A DNA stretch of 27,614 nucleotides. Source: a virus. Positions within the stretch are counted from its first letter, which is position 1, and the number at the start of each line of letters is the position of its first letter. The stretch spans positions 1 to 27,614 of IMG/VR virus record IMGVR_UViG_3300017788_000137; one strand, written 5' to 3'. Positions 3,837 through 17,537 of the stretch are shown piece after piece. Position numbers and translations under genes: made by a program. Under the pieces are notes generated by a model. That model was not told the origin of the DNA. It searched no databases and was given only the letters and a program-made list of their open reading frames with translations.

Positions 3837-4119
3837 AGGCTCTAACCTCATCCCGAAACGCAATGCAAAACACCAGTTCAGGCAACAGATCTTTGAGGCA
3901 TGGAGCCATGAGTGCGCGTACTGCGGCGCAGAGCCTGACACGTTAGATCACGTCAAGCCACGGCACAAGGGTGGCGCCACAGTTGCTTGCAATCTTGTAC
4001 CGGCGTGTCAGATTTGCAACCGTAAAAAGGGCAGCGAAGACTGGCGCGACTGGTTCAGCCGTCAAGATTCGTGGACAACAGCTCGCGTGCTAAGGATTCA
4101 GGATTGGACGCTTGATTAA
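3820..4119 (+). CDS. HNH endonuclease
   Basis: 99 residues with a GTG start. It has the compact HNH fold with zinc cysteines: C32-x2-C35 (CAYC) and C63-x2-C66 (CQIC). The catalytic core is DHVKPRHKGG (D43-H44) followed by N58 (CNLVPAC) and N67. Phage HNH nucleases of this size act in packaging, in cutting DNA, or as free-standing homing enzymes. Here it is the last gene of the plus-strand late block and converges on the sigma factor gene, overlapping its stop by 4 nt. No terminator hairpin is visible at the junction. Confidence 0.85.
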   Translation: MDHQIEGSNLIPKRNAKHQFRQQIFEAWSHECAYCGAEPDTLDHVKPRHKGGATVACNLVPACQICNRKKGSEDWRDWFSRQDSWTTARVLRIQDWTLD

Positions 4120-4237
4120 GCATTTGGTGGTAAAAAATTAACGCTTGCCATGCCTGCCTGTGCTCGATGCACATACCATTCAGGCACACGCGATAGATAT
4201 GCCCCACCTTGTGAATCGTTGGTTTCGACATGTCCAA
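4055..4237 (-). CDS. Possible overlapping small gene inside the sigma-factor 3' end
   Basis: A 60-residue frame (start at 4237, or the second ATG at 4231) lying in another frame over the last ~40 codons of the sigma gene and over the 3' end of the antisense HNH gene. Its sequence (MSKPTIHKVGHIYRVCLNGM, then CIEHRQAWQALIFYHQML) looks more protein-like than the sigma C-terminal extension it overlaps. It could be a real small gene, or the sigma C-terminus may be the shadow. I cannot decide from composition alone. Confidence 0.4.
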   Translation of the reverse strand: MDMSKPTIHKVGHIYRVCLNGMCIEHRQAWQALIFYHQMLNQASNPESLARELLSTNLDG

Positions 4238-5111
4238 GGGGGGTATCGTCCAAAGGGTTACTCATCAGCATACGCAGCCGTTGCAGGCCACGCTTCTCTA
4301 GGTTCTGCAATCTTGTCTTGCTAATGCCCATACGCTGTTCCAGTTCAGACCAACTCACAGGCCTGGCAAGGCTTCTGGCTTTAAGTATCCGTTTGGTTCG
4401 ACCGTCTAGTTTTGCTTCAAATATCTCCATCATGTCGCGTATTTCTTGCCGCGTTTCAACTAAATCATCCTCGTATTTAGGATCAGCGATGTTATCGCAA
4501 ATGGATGTGGTTTCTGTTTCAGCTACCTTTTGATCAAGACTGGTGACGCGATAGGTTTGTTTCATCAGATATGACAACTGTTCTGTTTTAATCCCCATTG
4601 CTGCTGCCGTTTCAGCCATGCTTGGTTGGCGCCCTAGTTTATGGCTAAGGTCTTGCACCGTGCGGCCTAGCTTGTATAGCGTCTCATGCAGGCTGGTTGG
4701 CAGCCGGATCATGTCATCGCTTTGGATCAATGCACGGGTGATGCCCTGGCGGATCCACCAGTAGGCATAGGTCGAGAACTTGTAGCCCCTTGATGGGTCA
4801 AACAACTCAACCGCACGCGCCAAGCCGATATTGCCCTCTTGAATCAGGTCCATCAGCTCAAGGCTTTTGTTGCTGCGTTTGTCGTACTTGCGTGCTACAT
4901 GCACCACAAGCTGCAGATTGGACTGGATAAACCGCTGCCGTGCGCGTTCACCGCTGCGCACTTCGCGCTGCTCTGCAACGGTCAGTTTCCTTTCTAGATT
5001 CTTTAATTCTTGCCATTTTGCTACACGCCTGCCTAGCTGTATCTCTTGTTGCGGTGTCAACAGCGGATATTTGGCAATACTGTTGAGATAGTCTTTAACG
5101 TTGTCAGCCAT
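4116..5111 (-). CDS. RNA polymerase sigma-70 family factor, cyanobacterial primary-like
   Basis: 331 residues. Region 1.2: VKDYLNSIAKYPLLTPQQEI (5-24). Region 2, about 57-130: DLIQEGNIGLARAVELFDP and YKFSTYAYWWIRQGITRAL, keeping the aromatic melting residues and the Gln/Thr that read the -10 element. Region 3, about 134-196: IRLPTSLHETLYKL. Region 4.2 helix-turn-helix, about 251-283: SWSELEQRMGISKTRLQNLE. The core is very like cyanobacterial group 1/2 sigma factors, so it should redirect host RNA polymerase to phage promoters. A tail of about 48 residues after region 4 is unusual. The start overlaps the divergent gene at 5110 within a single CATG. Confidence 0.92.
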   Translation of the reverse strand: MADNVKDYLNSIAKYPLLTPQQEIQLGRRVAKWQELKNLERKLTVAEQREVRSGERARQRFIQSNLQLVVHVARKYDKRSNKSLELMDLIQEGNIGLARAVELFDPSRGYKFSTYAYWWIRQGITRALIQSDDMIRLPTSLHETLYKLGRTVQDLSHKLGRQPSMAETAAAMGIKTEQLSYLMKQTYRVTSLDQKVAETETTSICDNIADPKYEDDLVETRQEIRDMMEIFEAKLDGRTKRILKARSLARPVSWSELEQRMGISKTRLQNLEKRGLQRLRMLMSNPLDDTPLGHVETNDSQGGAYLSRVPEWYVHRAQAGMASVNFLPPNA

Positions 5112-5355
5112 GACGAATCCGCTGGTTCACACGATGGAAGCGAAGTTCCATGGCGCTGCCAACGCTAACATGCTGCGCCAGCTTCATGCGGCAAAAGACT
5201 GGAACGCATTGCTCGAATATGGCCTGCTACTGGCTGAATCAGAAGCCAGCCAGCGGTCAACGATTAAATGGTTGGTCGCGGAAGCCATGAGATCATGCAG
5301 CGTCCAGGACTGGCACATCCAAGCGGCTAAGGAACTGCTTGCTGGCCGTGACTAA
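5110..5355 (+). CDS. Hypothetical helical protein, antisense within the minus-strand block
   Basis: 81 residues from the ATG at 5110; a second start at 5134 would give MEAKFHGAANANMLRQLHAA. Mostly helical, with a central KDWNALLEYGLLLAESEA. The protein fills exactly the gap between the sigma gene and the dCTP deaminase gene on the opposite strand, and nothing open fills this gap on the minus strand. Its 5' end shares CATG with the sigma start and its 3' end overlaps dcd by 63 nt. Transcription from the early block would be antisense to it. Function unknown. Confidence 0.6.
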   Translation: MTNPLVHTMEAKFHGAANANMLRQLHAAKDWNALLEYGLLLAESEASQRSTIKWLVAEAMRSCSVQDWHIQAAKELLAGRD

Positions 5356-5847
5356 CTTGTCGCCGTTGTAGCTGCCGGTGACGGCATAACTGATGGCTGG
5401 TCGTTGGCTCATGCGCCAAAAGACCATCTGACCAATTTTCAGGCCAGGGTAAATCGGCAGCGGCTGAAGCTGGCGTGCATTTTTTAGTTCCAGTGTCAGA
5501 CTGCTGCCATGCCAACCGGGATCGGCGTAGCCAGCATGGAGATTTTCATAGCCCTCGCGTGCACGACTGGATTTAAGGAAGAACAAGCCTGCGATGTCTT
5601 CAGGCATGTTGAATGTCTCCATTGTCTGCGCAAGAATGAACTGCCCTGGCACCAATTCATACGGGTGCTCGATGGTGTAATCCTTGATGCTGAGCGGAAT
5701 CATCTGATGCCCTTGAACAGACTCCAGCATGATTAAATCACCTACCCGCAGGTCGATGCTTGCTGGGTTAATTAGGTCTGCGTCATAGTCCTGCACCATC
5801 GAGTGCTGGCGGATCAGGTCTTGGATTTCGTGGTCGGAAAGAATCAC
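5293..5847 (-). CDS. dcd: dCTP deaminase
   Basis: 184 residues, close to the usual bacterial length of about 190. It converts dCTP to dUTP and ammonia, feeding dTMP synthesis. Diagnostic segments: start MILSDHEI, NPASIDLRVG (27-36), FFLKSSRAREG (89-99, with the SSxAR substrate loop), HAGYADPGWHG (104-114) followed by the catalytic glutamate E120 in LTLELKN, and IGQMVFW (138-144). No separate dUTPase is visible; some members are bifunctional. Its start overlaps the zinc-ribbon gene by 65 nt. Nucleotide pool control suits a phage that makes modified DNA, but that link is inference. Confidence 0.93.
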   Translation of the reverse strand: MILSDHEIQDLIRQHSMVQDYDADLINPASIDLRVGDLIMLESVQGHQMIPLSIKDYTIEHPYELVPGQFILAQTMETFNMPEDIAGLFFLKSSRAREGYENLHAGYADPGWHGSSLTLELKNARQLQPLPIYPGLKIGQMVFWRMSQRPAISYAVTGSYNGDKLVTASKQFLSRLDVPVLDAA

Positions 5848-6019
5848 TGGCCTGGTAGGGAGTAACGGTTTGCTCGGGTGGCTGTGCGGTGTACCATCGA
5901 TGACCGCAGCCGTTGCATTTACGACGGCGGTAAATTATGCCGTCTTCAGTTTGCTTGGTGTAGACGACATAGGTTTTTTGGCACGCGCATTCAGGGCATC
6001 GGATTTGAATAGCAGGCAT
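5783..6019 (-). CDS. Zinc-ribbon protein, NrdR-like N-terminus
   Basis: 78 residues. C8-x2-C11 (CPEC) and C35-x2-C38 (CNGC) with EDGIIYRRRKCNGCGHRWYT are strikingly like the N-terminal zinc ribbon of NrdR, the repressor of ribonucleotide reductase genes. The NrdR ATP-cone domain is absent; a Pro-rich tail follows instead. It may bind nucleic acid or imitate the ribbon. Both ends overlap neighbours (85 nt with the RHH gene, 65 nt with dcd), so only residues up to about 56 are free of overlap. The ribbon itself is convincing. Confidence 0.7.
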   Translation of the reverse strand: MPAIQIRCPECACQKTYVVYTKQTEDGIIYRRRKCNGCGHRWYTAQPPEQTVTPYQASDSFRPRNPRPDPPALDGAGL

Positions 6020-6240
6020 TGATCTTCAAGGTCTTTTGCCATTACTGCAGCAGAACGCAACATGGTACTGAGCTTGACAGGCTCCATCTCGCGTGCCATC
6101 GCATAACGGATGGCTTGCCGGAAACCCATACTAATGTTGCCGCTGCCTAGCTTGCGTGCCGCTTCAATCTCTTCACGAGTCATCCTGATGTTGACCGTAA
6201 AGTTCCGGCCTTTACCGTTAGGCCGGCGGTCGCTCGGCAT
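5935..6240 (-). CDS. Ribbon-helix-helix-like DNA-binding protein
   Basis: 101 residues. The N-terminus is basic (MPSDRRPNGKGRN), then a short strand FTVNIRM, then TREEIEAARKLGSGNISMGF and RQAIRYAMA. This is the strand-helix-helix pattern of Arc/CopG-type regulators. The last ~28 residues overlap the zinc-ribbon gene in another frame and may not be functional. Lying in the middle of the nucleotide/replication block, it could be a local transcription regulator. Moderate certainty on the fold, none on the operator. Confidence 0.6.
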   Translation of the reverse strand: MPSDRRPNGKGRNFTVNIRMTREEIEAARKLGSGNISMGFRQAIRYAMAREMEPVKLSTMLRSAAVMAKDLEDQCLLFKSDALNARAKKPMSSTPSKLKTA

Positions 6241-6379
6241 CTTGCATCAGCTCCATCAGGTCAAGCATATGCGCTGCAAAAGCAACATGCGTCATTACTG
6301 CATGAGTGCCGGGCGCAATCCCATAGCTTTCACGCCACCAATCTTCGAAGGCAGCCTTGATGGTTAGCTCGTTCATCAT
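6218..6379 (-). CDS. Hypothetical 53-residue protein
   Basis: A short gene in the gap between the sliding clamp gene and the RHH gene. It reads MMNELTIKAAFEDWWRESYG, then IAPGTHAVMTHVAFAAHMLD, and ends at TAA. The start ATG overlaps the dnaN stop as ATGA (6376-6379), typical of coupling in this block, and its end overlaps the RHH start by 23 nt. It is helical, with a Trp-Trp pair. Function unknown. Confidence 0.65.
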   Translation of the reverse strand: MMNELTIKAAFEDWWRESYGIAPGTHAVMTHVAFAAHMLDLMELMQDAERPPA

Positions 6380-7416
6380 TGCCTGACTTGGACTGGCATA
6401 ACCAAATAAGTTTGATCGACTGCAGCCTTCGGCTTGATCACGACTGGTGTTTTTTCACCATTTGCCATAAAAACCACATAGTCATGACTCCTGAAAGCCT
6501 TAAGTGCGTCAAGAATGTAGTTTACATTAAAAGCCCATACCCCTTCTCCTTCGTCCAAATAAGGCATCGACTCGGCGCCATTTAGCGCATCAGCTTCCGC
6601 TGTAATTGTCAAAACACCATTATTGGCTTCAACTTTAACGACCGAGTTGTGCTCTTCGGCCACAATTGCTACTCTTTCTAAACAGCGTAATAGCCTATGC
6701 CGATCAACTTCGATTTGATGATCGAAAGTTTTAGGGATAAGGCTGATCAAGTCTGGATACTTGCCGTCCAACGTCCTTGAAAAAATAGTAATCCCTTCAT
6801 CGGTAACAATAACAGCTTGTCCCTTGTCCGCCGAAATCGTCACAGCTTGATATTGAATTAAACGCATGGTGTTAGCTGGCAACACAAGGTCAATTCCGTC
6901 AGGCAAATCAACTGCATAACGCATCATTCGGTGACCGTCTGTTGCTTCCATGTAACCATTGGCAATGTGGATGCCCTGCAGAATTTGCTTGCTGGCGTCT
7001 TTGCTAGTACATGGCAAACACGCTTTCACTCCATCTGAAAGCAAAAGCTCACTTGACTTCGAATCGACCACTGGCAAAGCAGGGTAGTCAAGTGCGTCGT
7101 GAAATGGAATCTTGTAAGCACCGTCCAATGTTTTGATTAAATTGTTCTCAATACTAATAGCATCATCCTCCTCGAAACGGTTGGTCAAATTAGCTAGCAG
7201 TTTGTACGGCATTGCCAAGCTGCCATTTTTTTCGACTAGCGCAGGCGTTGTGATGCTGATGCCAAGGTCCATATTGAACCCAGTTAAAGTCATTTCACCG
7301 TTCCTTGCATCGAACAGCACGCAACCAAGAATCGGATGGCTGTTGTTTGAATTAATAGCTGGTGAAATCGTTTTCAAAGCGTGGGACAGGTCGCCCTTCG
7401 TTGTAAGTAGTTTCAT
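6376..7416 (-). CDS. dnaN: DNA polymerase III sliding clamp (beta subunit)
   Basis: 346 residues, slightly shorter than bacterial DnaN (about 366). It forms the ring that tethers DNA polymerase III to DNA. The N-terminus MKLLTTKGDLSHALKTISPA, the mid-protein EATDGHRMMRYAV and the C-terminal end YLVMPVQV match the three-domain clamp, including the conserved C-terminal MP(M/V) that lines the partner-binding pocket. The start at 7416 gives an ATGA overlap with the DUF3310 gene; an upstream start at 7437 is less likely. Phage-encoded beta clamps are uncommon, and no phage polymerase accompanies it in this window. Confidence 0.93.
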   Translation of the reverse strand: MKLLTTKGDLSHALKTISPAINSNNSHPILGCVLFDARNGEMTLTGFNMDLGISITTPALVEKNGSLAMPYKLLANLTNRFEEDDAISIENNLIKTLDGAYKIPFHDALDYPALPVVDSKSSELLLSDGVKACLPCTSKDASKQILQGIHIANGYMEATDGHRMMRYAVDLPDGIDLVLPANTMRLIQYQAVTISADKGQAVIVTDEGITIFSRTLDGKYPDLISLIPKTFDHQIEVDRHRLLRCLERVAIVAEEHNSVVKVEANNGVLTITAEADALNGAESMPYLDEGEGVWAFNVNYILDALKAFRSHDYVVFMANGEKTPVVIKPKAAVDQTYLVMPVQVRQ

Positions 7417-7613
7417 TGTCGGTGGATAAGATACCAAATTGCTTTGCCCAAATCCTCATCACCACCCTTGTGCCGTTCGCGCCAGATGTACTTTATTGCA
7501 TTGCCTTTGATGTAACCACGCCATTCCTCAGGATTGAGGGCTGATCGGATTGCATCGATGCATTCAATATTGCCACTGGTGTAATGGTCTGGATGGTTGA
7601 TAGAGTCAGACAT
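7413..7613 (-). CDS. DUF3310 family protein
   Basis: 66 residues from the ATG at 7613. NHPDHYTSGNIECIDAIRSA and GNAIKYIWRERHKGG followed by DLGKAIWYLIH are the full signature of the DUF3310 family, which includes a domain found in T7 gp1.7-like proteins. Members are common in phage nucleotide-metabolism regions; the biochemical activity is not settled. It overlaps the preceding gene by 8 nt and the dnaN start by 4 nt. A longer reading from 7745 would run through the neighbour and is rejected. Confidence 0.88.
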   Translation of the reverse strand: MSDSINHPDHYTSGNIECIDAIRSALNPEEWRGYIKGNAIKYIWRERHKGGDEDLGKAIWYLIHRQ

Positions 7614-7818
7614 TCGCGGCTTCTTGCAGATGAGAAATGATCCAGTCGTAATCAATTTTGAAGCTAGTGACCAGATCCGGCGGAATCGGGACACCATCAT
7701 CTTTTGCATTATCCAGGACTGCCGCTGCATTGGCAAGGGCTTCACGCATCAAACGATCAAGGTTCTGAATTACTGGTTTTTGCTTTTCGCTTATAAAAAG
7801 CAGAGAGTCAGGCTTCAT
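7606..7818 (-). CDS. Hypothetical helical protein
   Basis: 70 residues: a charged N-terminal helix (FISEKQKPVIQNLDRLMREA) followed by LANAAAVLDNAKDDGVPIPP and a C-terminal helix. Both ends overlap neighbours by a few bases (ATGA with the small membrane protein upstream, 8 nt with DUF3310 downstream), so it belongs to one polycistron. No known motif. Confidence 0.6.
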   Translation of the reverse strand: MKPDSLLFISEKQKPVIQNLDRLMREALANAAAVLDNAKDDGVPIPPDLVTSFKIDYDWIISHLQEAANV

Positions 7819-7958
7819 GGTTTAATCGTGATTTTGCATGGTCTGGTTTCTTGAAATGCAAGAACAGCTTGGTCTTTGCCGCTGGCATAACCAGCCGCGT
7901 AGATCATAAACATCATGACCAAAGCCGCAATCCTGTTGACACAAGGATTGTTAATCAT
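7815..7958 (-). CDS. Small membrane or exported protein
   Basis: A 47-residue frame reading MINNPCVNRIAALVMMFMIY, then AAGYASGKDQAVLAFQETRP and a short basic tail. Residues 9-24 are a clear hydrophobic helix, so it is an inner-membrane anchor or an uncleaved signal. The start overlaps the preceding gene's stop by 8 nt and the stop overlaps the next start as ATGA, which supports it as a genuine gene. Role unknown; early phage membrane peptides often interfere with host functions, but nothing here shows that. Confidence 0.65.
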   Translation of the reverse strand: MINNPCVNRIAALVMMFMIYAAGYASGKDQAVLAFQETRPCKITIKP

Positions 7959-8280
7959 TGCTCACCTCAACTGTTTCAGTTTCTGTTTGGTTTAAGGAAA
8001 CATTTTCTTCAGGCCAAAATCTTGCATTACGCAGACCTGCTATTGTTTGAGCCAGCAAATCAATTGCATCCTCAAGTTCAGAGAGGAAGCAGCACATTGA
8101 TGGGTCATGATTTTCCTGTTCATGAATTTCCTCCCATTTTTCATAAAACTTACTTACCAAAACAGATTGACAGACAAAGAGGGCGCTTTTGTTTTCAAGC
8201 AACCAATCCCCAGCGTTAATACGGAATGCATTTCTTCTGGCTTCCAGCATTGTTGTTGCTTTTGCCGTAACGCTTTCCAT
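7951..8280 (-). CDS. Hypothetical 109-residue protein
   Basis: Helical, acidic towards the C-terminus (NVSLNQTETETVEVSND). The centre reads WLLENKSALFVCQSVLVSKF then YEKWEEIHEQENHDPSMCCF, with a Cys-Cys pair. It starts 1 nt after the stop of the upstream 241-residue gene and overlaps the next gene by 8 nt. No family recognised. Confidence 0.6.
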   Translation of the reverse strand: MESVTAKATTMLEARRNAFRINAGDWLLENKSALFVCQSVLVSKFYEKWEEIHEQENHDPSMCCFLSELEDAIDLLAQTIAGLRNARFWPEENVSLNQTETETVEVSND

Positions 8281-8281
8281 T

Positions 8282-9007
8282 TCAAAAAAGCTCCTTAAGT
8301 GTTTGTTTGGTAACGCGGTAGTACATCACCATTCCTGGCACCTTTTCAATGAAATCGCAATCACATAAAATCTGCAATCCACGGCTAACCATTCGGCGCC
8401 ACCTAGGAAGTTCTTTGTGCATTTTGACAAGATCGCCATCCCAAAAGTCTTCGAAACATGCTTCCAAATATGCGTTCATTGTGACCGCCGAAAAAGCGCC
8501 GTCGTGAAACTTAGGATTGTTGGCGATAATCCGCGAAATAATTTGCGCCCATTCTTGTGAGCTGTGGAATGGCAGCTCATCATTGGTTTTTTGTTCTTGC
8601 GCCTTTTGAACATGACTAATCTGAAACAATAGTGATTCAATCACATTTGCTGCATCCCTAAGGAGCTCTGGCATTTTTGCCACATCATCAGGCACCGTTT
8701 GCCTGATTTCGTCTTGCAACAGGCCAGGCATTTGCTGTTCAATCGGGAGCGCGGTGCCTTTGTACTGGCCCTCATAGGCAGGATCGGCGCAAGGTCCAAC
8801 CCTGTAGGCTTTAACAATTTGACCTGGTCGCAGCTTGGCGAACCACTCCTGTTTGTCTGGTGAAAAAATAATGCCTTCATACGTCATACCGTTGTAGACG
8901 TAGCTGCATTTGGCCTGAAGGTTGCCGTTTCGAGTACGCGAAGGCAACAGGAAATTAATCCTAGCGTCGAGTGTTTCTGGAAGCATGAGCTTAATTTGGG
9001 TTTGCAT
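8282..9007 (-). CDS. Hypothetical protein of the replication block
   Basis: 241 residues from the second ATG; an upstream start at 9025 adds six residues with no better signal. The first ~85 residues look like a beta domain (LKLMLPETLD-type start, RTRNGNLQAKCSYVYNGMTY, GQIVKAYRVGPCADPAYEGQ). The second half is helical and ends in a segment resembling a winged helix (MVSRGLQILCDCDFIEKVPG then MVMYYRVTKQTLKEL). It sits directly downstream of ssb. A role in DNA transactions is plausible by position, but I do not recognise the family. Confidence 0.65.
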   Translation of the reverse strand: MQTQIKLMLPETLDARINFLLPSRTRNGNLQAKCSYVYNGMTYEGIIFSPDKQEWFAKLRPGQIVKAYRVGPCADPAYEGQYKGTALPIEQQMPGLLQDEIRQTVPDDVAKMPELLRDAANVIESLLFQISHVQKAQEQKTNDELPFHSSQEWAQIISRIIANNPKFHDGAFSAVTMNAYLEACFEDFWDGDLVKMHKELPRWRRMVSRGLQILCDCDFIEKVPGMVMYYRVTKQTLKELF

Positions 9008-9043
9008 TGTTAAAAATGGGGGCATTGCTGCCCCCAGTGATGG

Positions 9044-9376
9044 TTAAAAGGGCATGTCGTCAGCAGAGCTTTTCTGCTTGGGCGGCAGAGAGAAGTCTGT
9101 TACCGACAAGTTGATCGCGCCACCAGGCGTGCCATCTTTGCGCTCAAATGATTCGACGTACGCCTGGCCAGTCACGGTGATTTGAGCACCCTTGGTCAAA
9201 TAGTCATCTGCAACCTTTGCCTTAGGTCCCCATACGGCACATTTAATGACCGAGACAATGTCTTCTCCTTTGATTTTTTTGTTGACCATCAAGGTGAAGT
9301 TGGCAACTTCGGTGTCTTTGATGGTCTTGAGTTCAGGATCGGCAGCGAGATTACCGACAGCGGTTACTTGCAACAT
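9044..9376 (-). CDS. ssb: Single-stranded DNA-binding protein
   Basis: 110 residues: one OB fold (LQVTAVGNLAADPELKTIKD, VANFTLMVNKK, IKCAVWGPKAKVADDYLTKG, ITVTGQAYVESF) followed directly by a short tail ending in SADDMPF. That acidic tip matches the bacterial SSB C-terminal peptide that recruits replication and repair partners, so the phage protein probably docks host proteins. It is shorter than host SSB because the long Gly/Gln linker is missing. Neighbours are annealing-protein and RusA candidates, forming a recombination and replication set. Confidence 0.93.
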   Translation of the reverse strand: MLQVTAVGNLAADPELKTIKDTEVANFTLMVNKKIKGEDIVSVIKCAVWGPKAKVADDYLTKGAQITVTGQAYVESFERKDGTPGGAINLSVTDFSLPPKQKSSADDMPF

Positions 9377-9402
9377 GATTTTGGAATGGTGTTGGGCTGG
9401 TG

Positions 9403-10107
9403 TCAGAGGCTAAGGCGCTCTTGAATGAAGCGCAGATGCTTGGGCAGCGTGATATGCGCTGTCATCAATTCACCTTCGGGCACGTCAAAGGTTTTGTTGA
9501 ACTCTTTGATAATCTTGTTCCTCACGGCTACTGGCTCTTGGGTCAGTAGGTCACGGATCGTCTTTAAATCTTTGTCCGTGATCGGCGTGTCTTCAGGGTC
9601 AAGTTCTGTCGCGGCAGGCTCTTGAGCTTTTGCTTTTGGCTTGGGCTCAACTTTAGCCTTTGCAACAGATTCTGTGGCTGGTGCTTCAGTGGTCGCCTCC
9701 TTAGCCGTTTCAACCTCTTCTTTTGCCCATAGCTCGTAGCCAAGGCTGAAAAAGTAAGCAGCAGCAGCACAAAGACCACGACGATGCGTGTCAGTCAAAA
9801 CACGGCACGATACCTTTTCAAAGGCCACAGGCTGGTTTCGATGGTCTTGGCATGGATAAGGAAAACAAACAGTTGATTCCCCTTCAGGACCACGGAAATA
9901 ACCCATGATGTAGCCGCTGCCGTCTGGAGCTTTCCAGACATGACTGTTGTTGTCGTCCTGCATCAGGGCGAATTGCCAGCCTGGTGCGTTGGTGTGTAAG
10001 TGGTTTGCTATCCTTGCCCAACTGACGTAGTCAGCGGCATAAGATCCAGACCCTTTGCGGAATACGTCATCTTTTGTGATGGTGCCCGCCAAATTGGGGT
10101 AAGTCAT
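9403..10107 (-). CDS. Candidate single-strand annealing recombinase (ERF/DUF1071-like)
   Basis: 234 residues. Residues 1-130 form a compact domain (YVSWARIANHLHTNAPGWQF, HVWKAPDGSGYIMGYFRGPE, LTDTHRRGLCAAAAYFFSLG) resembling phage annealing proteins of the ERF/DUF1071/Sak group: an invariant W-A-type start, a beta sheet, then a helix with adjacent Arg. Residues 131-175 are a Lys/Ala/Glu/Pro-rich linker and 176-234 a helical C-terminal domain. Genomic context (SSB, RusA, RecB-like nuclease) supports recombination. Family assignment is by pattern, not by search. Its start overlaps rusA as ATGA. Confidence 0.55.
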   Translation of the reverse strand: MTYPNLAGTITKDDVFRKGSGSYAADYVSWARIANHLHTNAPGWQFALMQDDNNSHVWKAPDGSGYIMGYFRGPEGESTVCFPYPCQDHRNQPVAFEKVSCRVLTDTHRRGLCAAAAYFFSLGYELWAKEEVETAKEATTEAPATESVAKAKVEPKPKAKAQEPAATELDPEDTPITDKDLKTIRDLLTQEPVAVRNKIIKEFNKTFDVPEGELMTAHITLPKHLRFIQERLSL

Positions 10108-10547
10108 TTGGTTTGGTGATTAAGCGCAGTGAGCGTAATGATTGCGCCTGGCTGCTCATTTTCAGTGCAGTAGCGCTTGCTGGCCGTCAAACTGACAACC
10201 TGCCGGTCATCGTCAAACAAAACGCCTGTCAAAGCGTCGTGGGTTGACCTGACCAGTTTTTCAATGTCGCCGTTTCGGGCAGACGTGCAGTGCATGGGGG
10301 CGGACGAGCGTAAACCATGTTTTCCGTAATGGGATGTTGGACGTTTAAACCGAAACACCATGGAAGCCGTCATCGGAGCAGCGGTGTCCCAGCCGCTTGG
10401 CTTGGCTGTCATGGACTGGTACTTCACATCCTGCCGCCAGGGCTTTACGTTTTTGCTGGATTCGACCATGACGCCTTTGCCTATGTGACGTTTTGAACCT
10501 TGTGGAGCAGGAAGACCGATGACGACGAAAGAAATGGTGTTTTTCAA
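10104..10547 (-). CDS. rusA: RusA-family Holliday junction resolvase
   Basis: 147 residues, usual RusA size (about 120-150). The N-terminal LPAPQGSKRH and the acidic core GDIEKLVRSTHDALTGVLFD followed by DDRQV give the metal ligands (D94, D104 and the D112-D114 cluster). The common PDxDN is GDIEK here, so the second acidic residue is Glu instead of Asp. The enzyme cuts four-way junctions formed during replication or recombination, which would otherwise block packaging. Both ends overlap neighbours as ATGA, indicating one operon with the annealing-protein candidate. Confidence 0.9.
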   Translation of the reverse strand: MKNTISFVVIGLPAPQGSKRHIGKGVMVESSKNVKPWRQDVKYQSMTAKPSGWDTAAPMTASMVFRFKRPTSHYGKHGLRSSAPMHCTSARNGDIEKLVRSTHDALTGVLFDDDRQVVSLTASKRYCTENEQPGAIITLTALNHQTK

Positions 10548-13317: not shown

Positions 13318-13500
13318 ATGGCAGTCGGAAAAGCAACCGGAATCGGCATCGACAACAGCCTGCTCGATCGGCTGGAACAGTTTCGACCACCCTACATGAC
13401 CCAAAAAGTGCACATCAACATGCTTGTTGAGGAAGCATTGAAACGGCTCGAACAGCAGGAACAAGCTCCTGTCGAAACTGGCACGCTTACGCTGAAGTAG
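13318..13500 (+). CDS. Small ribbon-helix-helix-like protein
   Basis: 60 residues: MAVGKATGIGIDNSLLDRLE then a helix region KVHINMLVEEALKRLEQQEQ. A short strand (GIGI) followed by two helices is the pattern of CopG/Arc-type DNA-binding dimers. It lies immediately beside the 22-bp palindrome and so may autoregulate and control the opposite strand. No strong Shine-Dalgarno precedes it. A Pro/Glu/Thr tail ends the protein. Confidence in RHH is moderate. Confidence 0.65.
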   Translation: MAVGKATGIGIDNSLLDRLEQFRPPYMTQKVHINMLVEEALKRLEQQEQAPVETGTLTLK

Positions 13501-13611: not shown

Positions 13612-14403
13612 ATGACTTTCGCTGTTAAGTCCACGGGCTTTTCTGTTCTTCCGTACAGGTTGATGGACGAACAAAAAGACCCAAAGATTTTGATTATTTA
13701 TGCCTGGCTTCATCGCCACGGTTGGAACTCCAACCAAGGTTGTTTTGCGTCTTTGGCGACGTTGGCTGGCGAGGCTGGTGTATCCAGAAAAACCACGCAA
13801 CGGGCATTGGCCATCCTCGTCCGTGACGGCTGGGTGACTGTGGAAAACCGTCCAGGCAAGACCGCCGTTTACCGAATCCGCTCCGAAAAAGCCAGGTCGA
13901 AAACGACCCAAGTCAAAAACGACCCAGGTCGAAAACGACCTAGGGGTCAGGTCGAAAACGACCTAGGTACCCAGGTCGAAAACGACCTACGAACAAAAAC
14001 CCATAAACAAGAACCCATTAACAACAAAAAACCCTTAAAGCTTCAAACTGAGTTTGAAGCCGTTTGTTCGAAGCCTGTTGGCGACAGCAAAAAGCGGCAG
14101 CGGACCAAAGGCTCAGAGGCTTTTGAAGGGTTTTGGAAGCTGTACCTGTCCGCACCTGTTCGGGCAGCTAGCCAGTCCAAACCGAAGGCTTTAGCGCAAT
14201 GGCAAAAAATCACCCGTTTTGAGCCGGAACGGGTTTTAATGGAGGCGCTCGAAACCGAGATCAAGCATCAGCAGGCTGCTGGTGATGCGTTTGTGATCCC
14301 GTTACCCGATTGTTTCCGCTGGCTACGGGACGAGCGTTATGCCGTCGTCAACGAGCGCCCTGCTGGCAGCAGCGGCTTCAACCACGAAACCTATGTCTTC
14401 TAA
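13612..14403 (+). CDS. Replication initiator, lambda O-like (winged-helix domain), containing the origin
   Basis: 263 residues. Residues 27-93 form a winged helix: LIIYAWLHRHGWNSNQGCFA and LATLAGEAGVSRKTTQRALA then LVRDGWVTVENRPGKTAVYR. Residues 94-150 are a basic low-complexity linker encoded by the iterons. Residues 160-263 form a C-terminal domain (FEGFWKLYLSAPV, SKPKALAQWQKIT, PDCFRWLRDERY) of the type seen in phage replisome organisers. It should bind the iterons, melt the AT-rich DNA and recruit helicase or loader. Like lambda O, the binding sites are inside its own gene. No helicase loader is evident downstream. Confidence 0.8.
   Translation: MTFAVKSTGFSVLPYRLMDEQKDPKILIIYAWLHRHGWNSNQGCFASLATLAGEAGVSRKTTQRALAILVRDGWVTVENRPGKTAVYRIRSEKARSKTTQVKNDPGRKRPRGQVENDLGTQVENDLRTKTHKQEPINNKKPLKLQTEFEAVCSKPVGDSKKRQRTKGSEAFEGFWKLYLSAPVRAASQSKPKALAQWQKITRFEPERVLMEALETEIKHQQAAGDAFVIPLPDCFRWLRDERYAVVNERPAGSSGFNHETYVF
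13894..13988 (+). repeat. Five iterons inside the initiator gene
   Basis: Unit AGGTCGAAAACGACCT, itself an inverted repeat (AGGTCG/CGACCT around AAAA). Copies: 13894-13909 (last base C), 13910-13925 (AAGTCAAAAACGACCC, degenerate), 13926-13941, 13949-13964 and 13973-13988. Spacings are 16, 16, 23 and 24 nt. The copies are read in all three frames (SKTTQ, VKND, GRKRP, VEND, VEND), so the conservation is of DNA, not protein. Confidence 0.9.
13989..14040 (+). other. AT-rich tract next to iterons: probable replication origin unwinding element
   Basis: Directly after the last iteron, a 52-nt A-rich strand with repeated AAACCCAT/ACAA-type words runs to AAACCCTTAAAG. An iteron array followed by an AT-rich tract inside the initiator gene is the lambda ori layout. 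Confidence 0.7.
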
Positions 14404-14723
14404 TGTCTTTGAAATTATTTGACTACGAAAACCGTGGGCGTTACGTCCATCAGGTTTATGACAACAAACAACGCCTTTCGACGCAGTCTGTTTATCGCTT
14501 GGCCGGGTCAGGCAATTTTGCTGAAACCGAACTTGGTGATCCGAGGTTTCATTACTCGCCTGTCAGCGGTGACCATGCGATCGGCAAGTATGACGAGGAT
14601 GGCCACTACTGCACCTACCTGCCGCCAATCCCCAGACCTGGCTCGAAAGAACCTGTTGGTCGATACGTGCGCCATCCGTGGGCAGAAGAGGAGCGCCGTC
14701 GTCAAGGCGCGATGGAGGCTTGA
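14403..14723 (+). CDS. Hypothetical protein downstream of the initiator
   Basis: 106 residues from an ATG sharing one base with the initiator stop (TAATG). Sequence MSLKLFDYENRGRYVHQVYD, aromatic and charged, with GDHAIGKYDEDGHYCTYLPP and a basic C-terminus. It occupies the place where a helicase loader would be expected, but is too short and has no Walker motif. No family recognised. Confidence 0.6.
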   Translation: MSLKLFDYENRGRYVHQVYDNKQRLSTQSVYRLAGSGNFAETELGDPRFHYSPVSGDHAIGKYDEDGHYCTYLPPIPRPGSKEPVGRYVRHPWAEEERRRQGAMEA

Positions 14724-14726
14724 TCC

Positions 14727-15023
14727 GTGAAACAACCGAAAATTGGAGGTTTGCAGCCGCTCGGCACGTTCCAACAAACTGGCGAAACGCTCGCCCGCAT
14801 GATCGCCAAGGGACTGTGCACCCTGGACGACCTTGACGCCAGGCCGCCTGGTTCAATTGATTTGCCCATGCCTGAGTACCGAAACATCGCCCGTGATTGG
14901 ATTACGGGCAACCGCAACCGATGGGCTGAAATCAAAAACGAGTACGGGTCAGCTTCGGAGCCAGTAATCGAGCTGGTTTCCCCAAGAGACCTGCCCACAA
15001 CTGAACAACCACTACCGTTCTGA
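14727..15023 (+). CDS. Hypothetical protein
   Basis: 98 residues with a GTG start 3 nt after the previous stop. MKQPKIGGLQPLGTFQQTGE, then LARMIAKGLCTLDDLDARPP and a helical DWITGNRNRWAEIKNEY. Pro-rich C-terminal end (PTTEQPLPF). The TLDDLD region suggests a small helical motif. Unknown function. Confidence 0.6.
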   Translation: MKQPKIGGLQPLGTFQQTGETLARMIAKGLCTLDDLDARPPGSIDLPMPEYRNIARDWITGNRNRWAEIKNEYGSASEPVIELVSPRDLPTTEQPLPF

Positions 15024-15027
15024 CCGC

Positions 15028-15333
15028 ATGAAGCGCATCGCTGTTAAGTGCTACTTGACCCAAGAAGAAAACGAGCTACTGTCGCGTCAAGCGAAACAGC
15101 TCAACATGGAGCGCGGTCAACTGATTCGCCAGAGGGCTCTAGGAGCCGCTGCAGGGCGCTCGAACGGCTCGGCAGGCAAGACTCCCTTAAAGGTCTACCA
15201 CGAGGCCGTTGCAGCCGCCTACAGGGTGTCCAATGGTTACGCACCTCGTCACGTCGTCGAAAGCATTGCCGCTGCCGTACTCTGCTGCGTCGATCAACTT
15301 CAAGTGGACGAGGCGTTTGACGCTGTTGCTTAA
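15028..15333 (+). CDS. RHH/MobC-like DNA-binding protein
   Basis: 101 residues. IAVKCYLTQEENELLSRQAK then QLNMERGQLIRQRALG matches the N-terminal RHH-type segment of MobC-like relaxosome accessory proteins and many phage regulators (strand, helix, turn with S/G, helix). The rest is helical with a Cys-Cys pair (AAVLCCVDQL). It precedes the modification cassette with a 35-nt gap containing AAGGAG. I infer DNA binding; mobilisation itself is unlikely since no relaxase is seen. Confidence 0.6.
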   Translation: MKRIAVKCYLTQEENELLSRQAKQLNMERGQLIRQRALGAAAGRSNGSAGKTPLKVYHEAVAAAYRVSNGYAPRHVVESIAAAVLCCVDQLQVDEAFDAVA

Positions 15334-15368: not shown

Positions 15369-15962
15369 ATGGTTATCGCTCCTGAATTTATCGATCAGAC
15401 CCCAGTTGAAGACCTCAAGCCATACGACAAAAACCCAAGGACCCATAGCGCAACTCAAATCGAACGCCTGGTGAACTCCATGAAAGAGTTCGGGTTCACT
15501 AATCCACTTCTGATCGATGACGATCAAAACGTCATCGCTGGTCACGGTCGCCTTGAAGCAGCAAAAATCCTTGGCCTTGAAACTGTCCCAACAATTACTC
15601 TGTCGCACCTAACGCCAGAGCAAAGGCGTGCTTACGTTATCGCTGATAACCAGCTAGCTCTTAACTCTGGTTGGGATGACGACCTGCTCCAATCAGAAAT
15701 TAACGCACTCGGTGAACTTGGCTACGACTTGACCCTTCTCGGCTGGGGCGATGAACTTCCCAGTTTCGGTGAAGAAATCGACCTGTCCGCCCTAGAAGAC
15801 GAAGAAGACTTGTCCGAATACGCTGCTGGCGTGCGCAAAGCGATTCAGATCGACTTCGAACCAGAAGACTACGAAGAGGCGCAGGCACTGGTATCCGCAG
15901 CTCGCAAGTCTGGTAAATATGTCGGCATGCTTTTAATCAATGCACTTAAAGACGATGCTTGA
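15369..15962 (+). CDS. ParB/Srx-fold nuclease-like domain protein
   Basis: 197 residues. Residues 13-100 are a ParB N-terminal/sulfiredoxin-like domain: LKPYDKNPRTHSATQIERLV, FGFTNPLLIDDDQNVIAGHG (GHGR motif), then LTPEQRRAYVIADNQLALNS. In many phages this domain stands alone or is fused to DNA methyltransferases; here no methyltransferase domain follows, only an acidic region and a C-terminal alpha/beta segment (residues 155-197). It overlaps the glycosyltransferase start by 8 nt, indicating a joint operon with the DNA-modifying enzymes. Possible roles are NTP-dependent DNA binding or nicking. Confidence 0.85.
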   Translation: MVIAPEFIDQTPVEDLKPYDKNPRTHSATQIERLVNSMKEFGFTNPLLIDDDQNVIAGHGRLEAAKILGLETVPTITLSHLTPEQRRAYVIADNQLALNSGWDDDLLQSEINALGELGYDLTLLGWGDELPSFGEEIDLSALEDEEDLSEYAAGVRKAIQIDFEPEDYEEAQALVSAARKSGKYVGMLLINALKDDA

Positions 15963-16752
15963 TTATCAAATCGCTATTCCCTCTTACAAGCGAACGGAAA
16001 CACTAGCGAAAGCAACGCTGTCTATGTTAAAAAAACATGGTTGCGACTTTTCGAACGTAACCATCTTTACCGCCGACAAAAACGAAACCAAAGCCTATTC
16101 CGCCATGCTTGGCATGGTCGGCATTCGAGCTGAAGTAGTTACTGGCGAACCAGGCATCGGCAAGCAACGCATCTTTATTAACAAACACTACCCAGTTGAC
16201 ACGAGGGTTCTCAGCCTCGATGACGATATTTATGCCTTGTCGATCGTTGATGAAAACAAAAAACTGAATCCCTGTGATTGGACAATCGACCGCATTGCCT
16301 TAAAAGGGTTTCAAACCTGCGAAAAGGTCAACGCAAAAATGTGGGGAATCAATCCCGTTGAAAATGGCTTCTATATGGATCGCACTACCTCGATTGGCCT
16401 GCGATACATCTGTGCCAACTTCTTCGGGTCTTACGCCGGTGATGCTGTTTGGACCGCCACAGACCGTAAAGACTTCTCTTCAGGCGAAGACTTTGAATCC
16501 ACGCTTCGATCATTCGTGCAATACAAAGGCGTCGTCCGCCTAGACGGTATTTGCCCTAAAACTAAATACTTCGCGCAAGGTGGCATCTGCGCTGAAATAG
16601 GCGGTGAAGACAAACGCAAACTAGACCATCACAAGCACCTCACCGAAATCGCTGCACGCTTTCCTCACCTATGCAAAACCTACAAAAAATCAGACGGCAC
16701 TACTAACATCAAACTAAAACCAGTCACACGCGGCAAAATTGCTTGGCTATGA
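15955..16752 (+). CDS. GT-A glycosyltransferase, likely TET/JBP-associated (TAGT-like)
   Basis: 265 residues. GT-A nucleotide-sugar fold: IAIPSYKR at 7-13, FTADKNE near 38-44, the metal-binding LSLDDDI at 87-92 (DxD), and GEDFEST at 177-183, where the ED could supply the catalytic base. The sequence style and the 4-nt overlap with a TET/JBP oxygenase fit the glycosyltransferases that place a sugar on hydroxymethylated bases in phage DNA. Sugar donor and base are unknown. A general GT2 role on cell surface is the alternative, but the overlap argues for DNA. I start it at the ATG at 15955 instead of 15940. Confidence 0.75.
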   Translation: MLDYQIAIPSYKRTETLAKATLSMLKKHGCDFSNVTIFTADKNETKAYSAMLGMVGIRAEVVTGEPGIGKQRIFINKHYPVDTRVLSLDDDIYALSIVDENKKLNPCDWTIDRIALKGFQTCEKVNAKMWGINPVENGFYMDRTTSIGLRYICANFFGSYAGDAVWTATDRKDFSSGEDFESTLRSFVQYKGVVRLDGICPKTKYFAQGGICAEIGGEDKRKLDHHKHLTEIAARFPHLCKTYKKSDGTTNIKLKPVTRGKIAWL

Positions 16753-17537
16753 CCATTACAAAACTGCCAACCGTCATACTCAAACCCGTTCAGCACACCG
16801 TCAAAATCGGTGATTCCGTAACCAACCTGCAACCTACAATCACGGATTCCTGCATCCTTGTGGACCCTGACGGCAGTCAGGTAGGACTGTTCCTCAAAGA
16901 GCTTCCGCCAGAACTGCAAAATCTGGTCAACATCGCTGACCTCGAAGTTCGCTCCGATCGCGTTCCAAAATCAACCATGCGCCGCTCTTCAGGCATGATG
17001 GGCGCCGCCAAAGAAGTTGAGCAATACTCGGCCATTCTCGGCTCATGCCCGCCTAAACCGCACATGCGCCGCCCATATCCCACACGCTCGTCAATACACT
17101 CCAAACCCTCGGCGTCAACATTCGTCCGTGCCATGCTCAAAGCAGGCAAACTCGCTATGGGTCTCGTCGCTCACTACATCCCAGACGTCCACGCCAAGCA
17201 CCTATCCGTTATCGAAAAACGCATCCCATCAGATTGGCGCTTCACCCCATACTTCTCCTCAACCATCTCGAACTGCAATATCGCTGCCCCAATCCACCAA
17301 GACAACGCCAACGTCAAAGGCGCCGTAAACCTCATCATTACCAAGCGTCAAAACTCAACAGGCGGAAACCTCTGCGTTCCTGATTACAACGCCACCTTCG
17401 ATCAATCAAATAATTCCCTTCTCGTTTACCCCGCATGGCGCAACATGCACGGCGTAACACCAATCGTCCCAACGCATCCTGGTGGTTACCGTAACTCTCA
17501 CGTCTGGTATGCTCTAGACTCTTTTGCAAACCTGTAA
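16749..17537 (+). CDS. TET/JBP-family Fe(II)/2-oxoglutarate dioxygenase (DNA base hydroxylase)
   Basis: 262 residues, starting in an ATGA overlap with the glycosyltransferase. The C-terminal double-stranded beta helix carries PIHQDNANVKGAVNLI (H183-x-D185), GGNLCVPDYN, NNSLLVYPAWRNMHGVTP (distal H234) and GGYRNSHVWY (R248 for 2-oxoglutarate). This spacing and the N/G residues after HxD follow the TET/JBP group that hydroxylates 5-methylcytosine or thymine within DNA. Residues 1-140 are a less conserved N-terminal part. No C5-cytosine methyltransferase is in the window, so the substrate may be host- or elsewhere-made 5mC, or thymine. Codon use is somewhat more AC-rich than in the neighbouring head genes. 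Confidence 0.8.
   Translation: MTITKLPTVILKPVQHTVKIGDSVTNLQPTITDSCILVDPDGSQVGLFLKELPPELQNLVNIADLEVRSDRVPKSTMRRSSGMMGAAKEVEQYSAILGSCPPKPHMRRPYPTRSSIHSKPSASTFVRAMLKAGKLAMGLVAHYIPDVHAKHLSVIEKRIPSDWRFTPYFSSTISNCNIAAPIHQDNANVKGAVNLIITKRQNSTGGNLCVPDYNATFDQSNNSLLVYPAWRNMHGVTPIVPTHPGGYRNSHVWYALDSFANL

Follow-up and report, generated by a model that had tools for sequence, protein, structure and literature searches.

In bacteriophage lambda, dimers of the initiator protein O bind to inverted repeats, and the neighbouring A+T-rich region of 40 bp opens (PMC5043065; see also PMC7466680). O proteins with in-frame deletions in the AT region still complement (PMC6022878). Ectopic lambda origins arrest lambda (PMC4488673), and a plasmid carrying ori-lambda is inhibitory to rep-lambda, whereas a repP22 hybrid is insensitive to it (PMC3349717). 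In the PLE satellite of Vibrio cholerae, the DNA-binding domain of the initiator RepA co-varies with the iterons while its C-terminal domain stays; two groups of PLE replicon modules are described, the modules have been swapped more than once, and a phage nuclease that mimics the PLE initiator cuts the PLE iterons (PMC8263062). Exchangeable replicon modules are also described for Pseudomonas plasmids (PMC5304414).

Here, we analyse a viral DNA of 27,614 nucleotides (the window), in which an iteron array and the tract behind it very probably constitute a lambda-type theta-replication origin, located inside the phage's own initiator gene. The host is likely a Synechococcus-like cyanobacterium; the phage collection has a single named relative, cyanophage KBS-S-2A, which infects Synechococcus WH7803, and the terminase of the window is closest to that of cyanophage S-2L (52%). 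The gene and its parts are as follows.

13612-14403, plus strand: O-like initiator gene, 263 aa, with a winged helix, a disordered linker and a helical C-terminal domain (HTH_36, phrog_270, AF2 model)
13642-13884, plus strand: codons of the winged-helix DNA-binding domain, residues 11-91 (AF2 pLDDT about 80-94 over most of it, structural matches at Z about 9-10)
13786-13824, plus strand: codons of the third helix, residues 59-71, the presumed recognition helix (AF2; its residues track the iteron class)
13888-14094, plus strand: codons of the disordered linker, residues 93-161, hosting the iterons and the AT tract (AF2 pLDDT under 50)
14116-14325, plus strand: codons of the C-terminal helical domain, type A (motif CFRWLRD), presumed to recruit the helicase (AF2 helices 169-238)

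A reading of the sequence alone had proposed that this gene encodes an initiator, and domain searches agree. The protein matches the Pfam family HTH_36 at 38.6 bits (cut-off 25), its best PHROG is phrog_270 (replication initiation, 3e-19, residues 27-243), and further matches are to the O-like families phrog_391 and phrog_678. The predicted product is thus a winged-helix replication initiator. An AF2 model built on 39 relatives, whose overall confidence is modest (mean pLDDT 62, pTM 0.35), places the repeats in the linker between the winged-helix and C-terminal domains, as had been proposed, and a second model, of the related protein L099, again contains a winged helix and a disordered linker. 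The third helix begins R59-K60-x-x-Q63-R64. Two structures entitled 'Structure of initiator' match the model (4pt7, Z 9.5, rmsd 4.8, 98 aligned residues; 4pql, Z 9.6, rmsd 4.1, 89 aligned residues), in the company of many other winged helices, many of them repressors, and such Z values are common for the fold. Foldseek returned no match at E 0.001 or better with this model, and the solved structures include no sequence relative of value for the window protein, nor for lambda O. Just upstream of the initiator, at 13318-13500, lies an ORF of 60 aa with no Pfam match, which by eye has a ribbon-helix-helix look and perhaps encodes a regulator of the initiator operon.

Within the initiator ORF, a rescan recovered five AGGTCG-AAAA-CGACCT sites with start-to-start spacings of 16, 16, 23 and 24 nt, at exactly the positions of the sequence-only reading, followed by an AT-rich tract.

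13894-13909, plus strand: iteron 1, AGGTCGAAAACGACCC, frame 0, peptide RSKTTQ
13910-13925, plus strand: iteron 2, degenerate, AAGTCAAAAACGACCC, frame 1, peptide QVKNDP
13926-13941, plus strand: iteron 3, perfect, frame 2, peptide PGRKRP
13949-13964, plus strand: iteron 4, perfect, frame 1, peptide QVENDL
13973-13988, plus strand: iteron 5, perfect, frame 1, peptide QVENDL
13989-14040, plus strand: AT-rich, strand-asymmetric tract, the presumed unwinding element (~14-nt direct repeats, least stable 50-mer of the gene, conservation)
13992-14007, 14006-14021 and 14023-14038, plus strand: ~14-nt direct repeats within this tract

The description of the array as five copies of a 16-bp inverted repeat needs some qualification. 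The arms are indeed inverted, but the unit is not a continuous palindrome, since two arms of 5-6 bp flank an A4 core; and while all five copies were located, only three are perfect (AGGTCGAAAACGACCT), the first having one mismatch and the second three. The copies are read in all three frames and yield different peptides, as had been claimed. At up to three mismatches, the whole window contains six sites, five of them in the array, compared with a mean of 0.17 and a maximum of 2 in 100 dinucleotide shuffles. Because the peptide restricts the DNA, we also generated 20,000 synonymous recodings of the ORF, following local codon usage. Five sites at this threshold were reached in 9 of the recodings (mean 1.97 sites), and none attained the four exact 14-mers seen in the ORF, the maximum being 2. 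The array is not accounted for by the peptide alone and lies far above chance.

Relatives of the initiator were collected by a protein search, which returned 22 loci, and by a sequence scan, which found two adjacent GGTCRAAAACGACC in 44 viral contigs. In all 44, the array lies within the initiator ORF, with copies in at least two frames; genome contigs contained neither a relative nor an array of the GGTCG class. Among 50 distinct genes of the class, the last iteron is an exact GGTCGAAAACGACC read as RSKTTY in 20 and as QVENDL in 16, and the other 14 carry one- or two-base variants of it. The two readings belong to different clades, so that relatives keep the DNA of this iteron while its frame and peptide differ, in agreement with the earlier proposal that selection acts on the DNA. 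The alignment with related phages that had been suggested as a check thus gave a retained repeat and an altered peptide, the reverse of a kept peptide with a lost repeat. These observations bear on the idea that what is selected is a repetitive peptide in the linker, or that the repeats derive from a mobile palindrome. Short peptide motifs do recur in the linker, QVENDL occurring twice, but the use of three frames with different peptides, the recoding test, the disorder of the linker and the constancy of DNA under changing peptides between clades all speak against this idea, and neither the window nor the 44 contigs contain scattered copies, beyond a few matches with three mismatches. We give this explanation next to no probability. 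The lambda O deletions that still complement fit the view that the amino-acid sequence of the linker is of little importance.

The perfect copies could, by eye, form RNA hairpins (GGUCG-AAAA-CGACC) with a 5-bp stem and an A4 loop, which might control translation or transcription of the gene. However, over 210 copies from 40 arrays, in which the GGTC/GACC half-sites are nearly invariant, a change in one arm is not balanced by a matching change in the other: pair 5-10 combines A with C in 75 copies and pair 3-12 G with A in 17, only 102 copies are fully symmetric, and other iteron classes show mixed arms, such as GGTC..GCTC. Since compensatory changes are absent, we rejected RNA hairpins, which are very improbable. 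The conservation of the half-sites points instead to recognition by protein.

The sequence-only reading had also placed an AT-rich tract immediately behind the repeats, which is borne out by base composition (30 A, 14 C, 3 G and 5 T in the 52 nt from 13989) and by stability; the direct repeats of ~14 nt within it are an addition. The 50-mer at 13991 has the lowest stability of the 739 starts in the initiator gene; across the whole window, 77 of 27,565 starts fall below it. Of 20,000 synonymous recodings, 207 attained the AT content of the tract and 198 its repeat pairing, so that the tract taken alone is unusual only to a moderate degree, its conservation being the stronger argument. Among loci fetched without the AT repeat as a probe, 75 of 78 distinct linkers retain it, and the three exceptions are one truncated contig and two genes of the GGAGC class. 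When used as a probe, the AT repeat retrieved 80 contigs, at least two of which (L089, L114) represent unrelated ORFs.

Across the relatives, the same place in the initiator gene is occupied by about ten classes of iteron sequence, the GGTCG class among them, which are listed here with the residues of the presumed recognition helix.

GGTCR (GGTCG) iterons: helix [ST]RK..QR
GGAGCA-AAAA-TGCTCC iterons: helix CEK..QR
CCCCTnnC-AAAAA-CGnnAGGGG iterons: helix S[QE]x..RR
GGTTCA-AAAA-TGAACC iterons: helix GKR..QN
YACG-AAAA-CGTRA iterons: helix SAA..RR
CCCC-AAAA-GGKG iterons: helix KPD..RQ (KBS-S-2A)
GGTACC or GGCC type iterons: helix KVK
TACCGGATCCGGTA iterons: helix HREGVRR
Two more distant iteron types: L093, L117

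The classes of L073-L077, L082, L093 and L117 were read by eye, the half-site finder giving an unclear consensus. Motif rules applied to the DNA alone classed 67 of 71 distinct combinations of helix and iteron, leaving L106, L109, L170 and L202. GGTCR sites accompany a [ST]RK..QR helix in 40 of 40 cases and no other helix, and nine of ten CEK combinations fall into the GAGCA class. These associations indicate that each iteron class goes with its own recognition helix. Two loci, L023 and L024, have the VSINTI context of the CCCCT class, yet combine the helix SRKVVQR with GGTCG iterons, which singles out the recognition helix itself as the likely determinant of the iteron class. In L088, L103, L118 and other loci of the GGAGC class, a left GGTC arm and a right GCTC arm occur in one copy, as if the site stood between two specificities or the array had been partly converted.

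The 74 distinct full-length initiators that were compared have two main C-terminal types. In relatives, the type A domain of the window gives way to a type B domain (motif GWGDVF); the initiators with GGTCG iterons include 24 of type A, 23 of type B and 1 other. With class labels assigned from the helix motif, as in all pair and tree comparisons, 142 pairs with at least 75% C-terminal identity have a common class, with a mean identity of 0.94 in the HTH and 0.94 in the iteron DNA, whereas in the 77 such pairs of different class these values drop to 0.57 and 0.62. One example is provided by L099 and L116, which are 94.3% identical over 600 bp upstream and 94.8% over 1.5 kb downstream of the gene and, within it, 97.6% in the N-terminus, 97.8% in the AT tract and 96.2% in the C-terminus, but only 64.5% in the HTH and wing and 58.5% in the iterons. 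In steps of 50 bp, their identity is 82% at 100-149, 56-70% up to 399 and 98% from 400 onward. L108 and L028 follow the same pattern, from ~300 bp upstream to ~2.1 kb past the start codon. The segment that differs sharply in these otherwise ~95% identical phages comprises ~265 bp, covering the helix-turn-helix and the iterons. Conversely, the cassettes of L099 and L108 are 90% identical in the HTH and 93% in the iterons, while the DNA of their AT tracts plus C-termini is only 75% identical.

The phylogeny of the cassette conflicts with that of the backbone. A tree of the AT tract and C-terminal DNA of 38 type B genes requires at least 11 class changes (least possible 6), and for the GGTCG class alone its well-supported branches force at least 7; since the labels derive from the helix motif, the 6 changes on the HTH tree are partly circular, whereas the 11 on the C-terminal tree are not. 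Assembly chimeras are an unlikely source of these patterns, because several independent contigs carry each main class. The trees and pairs together indicate that the recognition helix and the iterons are exchanged as one cassette, with the C-terminal region staying in place, and this co-variation as an exchangeable unit goes beyond the first reading. One GGTCG-class initiator (L061, 3533-4204; 225 aa) is without part of the type B C-terminal domain and has no GWGDVF, possibly reflecting a natural deletion or an assembly error.

The strict coupling between protein and site does not in itself reveal what the site is for, and repressors abound among the winged-helix structural matches. The array could therefore be bound by the protein as an operator for autoregulation, or as a partition or packaging site, rather than as an origin. 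We consider this unlikely, given that the array lies deep in the gene, immediately before a conserved, unstable tract of AT-rich repeats, that the best-matching gene families are replication initiators and that the anatomy is that of the lambda origin; for an operator, there would be no need of the AT tract, or of five sites that lie about 280 bp inside the gene. In the origin that we favour, initiator dimers would bind to each inverted repeat, with half-sites about one helical turn apart, and the bound initiators would pack into a nucleoprotein complex over 13894-13988, whose strain would open the AT-rich tract behind it (13989-14040). The replicative helicase, probably that of the host, would then be brought in by the C-terminal domain, either alone or together with a loader. 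No gene for a P-like helicase loader was recognised at 14403-14720 or 15028-15330 by PHROGs and Pfam, or at 14727-15020 by Pfam. GC skew, which had been put forward as a mark of the origin, does not turn at the array in either the window or KBS-S-2A. The cumulative skew has a local maximum about 1.5 kb left of the site in the window and a maximum about 2.6 kb left in KBS-S-2A, and it seems to follow gene orientation.

Because the codons of the binding domain precede the iterons and those of the C-terminal domain follow them, specificity and target can be replaced jointly. Two crossovers, the first placed before the helix-turn-helix and the second at the conserved AT tract, would suffice for this replacement and would leave the rest of the replicon unchanged. 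It is tempting to speculate that this origin is one allele of a multi-specificity replication-compatibility system, in which repeated swaps of a ~265-bp cassette between fixed flanks are combined with diversifying selection. The swapping itself rests on sequence; the system as a whole is a tentative proposal, to which we give somewhat less than an even chance. Selection against a common origin type might come, for instance, from phages infecting the same cell, from satellites that make use of the phage initiator, from decoy origins or from initiator-mimicking nucleases, and the lambda and PLE precedents suggest, by analogy, why origin types would diversify. GGTCR arrays outside initiator genes, as expected of satellites or decoys, were found in none of the 44 viral contigs in a scan for this class.

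Several other genes of the window are also of note. On the minus strand, positions 4116-10547 encode a sigma-70 factor, a dCTP deaminase, an NrdR-like zinc ribbon, a DNA polymerase III beta clamp, SSB, a Sak-like protein and RusA, and the occurrence of a phage-borne sliding clamp alongside an O-type origin is notable. The stretch at 9403-10107 has a strong match to the unknown family phrog_21418 (2.5e-67) and a weak match to Sak-like annealing proteins. Behind a ParB_N-like gene at 15369-15962, the region at 15940-17537 encodes a TET-associated glycosyltransferase (TAGT, PF20691, 1.3e-8) beside a weak match to Tet/JBP oxygenases (PF12851, 4e-5, below the cut-off), which possibly form a cassette for cytosine hypermodification. 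Such modification could affect initiator binding, because the iterons contain CpG steps.

According to our findings, a lambda-like origin would be present in relatives of a cyanobacterial siphovirus whose initiator is still annotated as hypothetical. The KBS-S-2A protein CPKG_00028, a mere 'hypothetical protein' in its record, is homologous to the window initiator (40% identity over residues 1-93) and shares with it the place of the linker, an AT-rich AAAACCCA repeat and a similar divergent gene layout, but it differs in its CCCC-AAAA-GGKG iterons and recognition helix. In the main text of the KBS-S-2A genome paper, the words 'replication' and 'helicase' are absent and a putative DNA polymerase is mentioned (PMC3751600). 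A literature search of titles and the beginnings of abstracts, with subscription journals mostly outside its reach, returned no account of the iterons or the origin of these phages. The set of relatives amounts to a natural experiment, with about ten recognition helices and their cognate sites on one scaffold and pairs whose sharp differences are confined to the cassette, so that a winged-helix recognition code and the reason for the change of origin type become directly testable.

The proposed equivalence with the origin inside lambda O agrees with the anatomy of the lambda record, in which iterons whose inverted arms enclose an A-rich core (CCCTC-AAAAC-GAGGG) start at 39034, 39054, 39078 and 39101 of gene O, in frames 0, 2, 2 and 1, and the least stable 50-mer by the same calculation lies just after them. 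Both origins combine such iterons in the middle of the initiator gene with a subsequent A-rich, strand-asymmetric tract, and both have spacings of 23 and 24 nt and mixed reading frames. The claim that the repeat sequence is quite different from that of lambda applies to the arms, but not to the design of inverted arms around an A-rich core, which is common to both. The window further differs in the 14-nt repeats of its AT tract, in its cyanophage-like context and in that no P-like gene was recognised beside the initiator among the ORFs scanned. The proteins belong to different families: lambda O matches phrog_277 at 1.2e-152, which the window protein does not at E 0.1, and hhalign of the window profile against lambda O gave no significant result (probability 0.9%, E 0.059), whereas both match the O-like families phrog_391 and phrog_678.

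Work by Furth and Yates (1978; cited in PMC6022878) reportedly dealt with hybrid O proteins and with the rep-type specificity of related lambdoid phages. The type-specific replication of lambda, phi80, 82 and P22 resembles the present case in that related phages differ in rep type, whereas the set described here contains near-isogenic natural pairs and many specificities within one initiator family. As in the modular replicons of PLE, the DNA-binding domain and the iterons change together while the C-terminal domain is constant. However, the PLE origin is noncoding and lies outside repA, whereas here target and reader reside in one gene, and the two groups described for PLE compare with about ten classes in the initiator family of the window.
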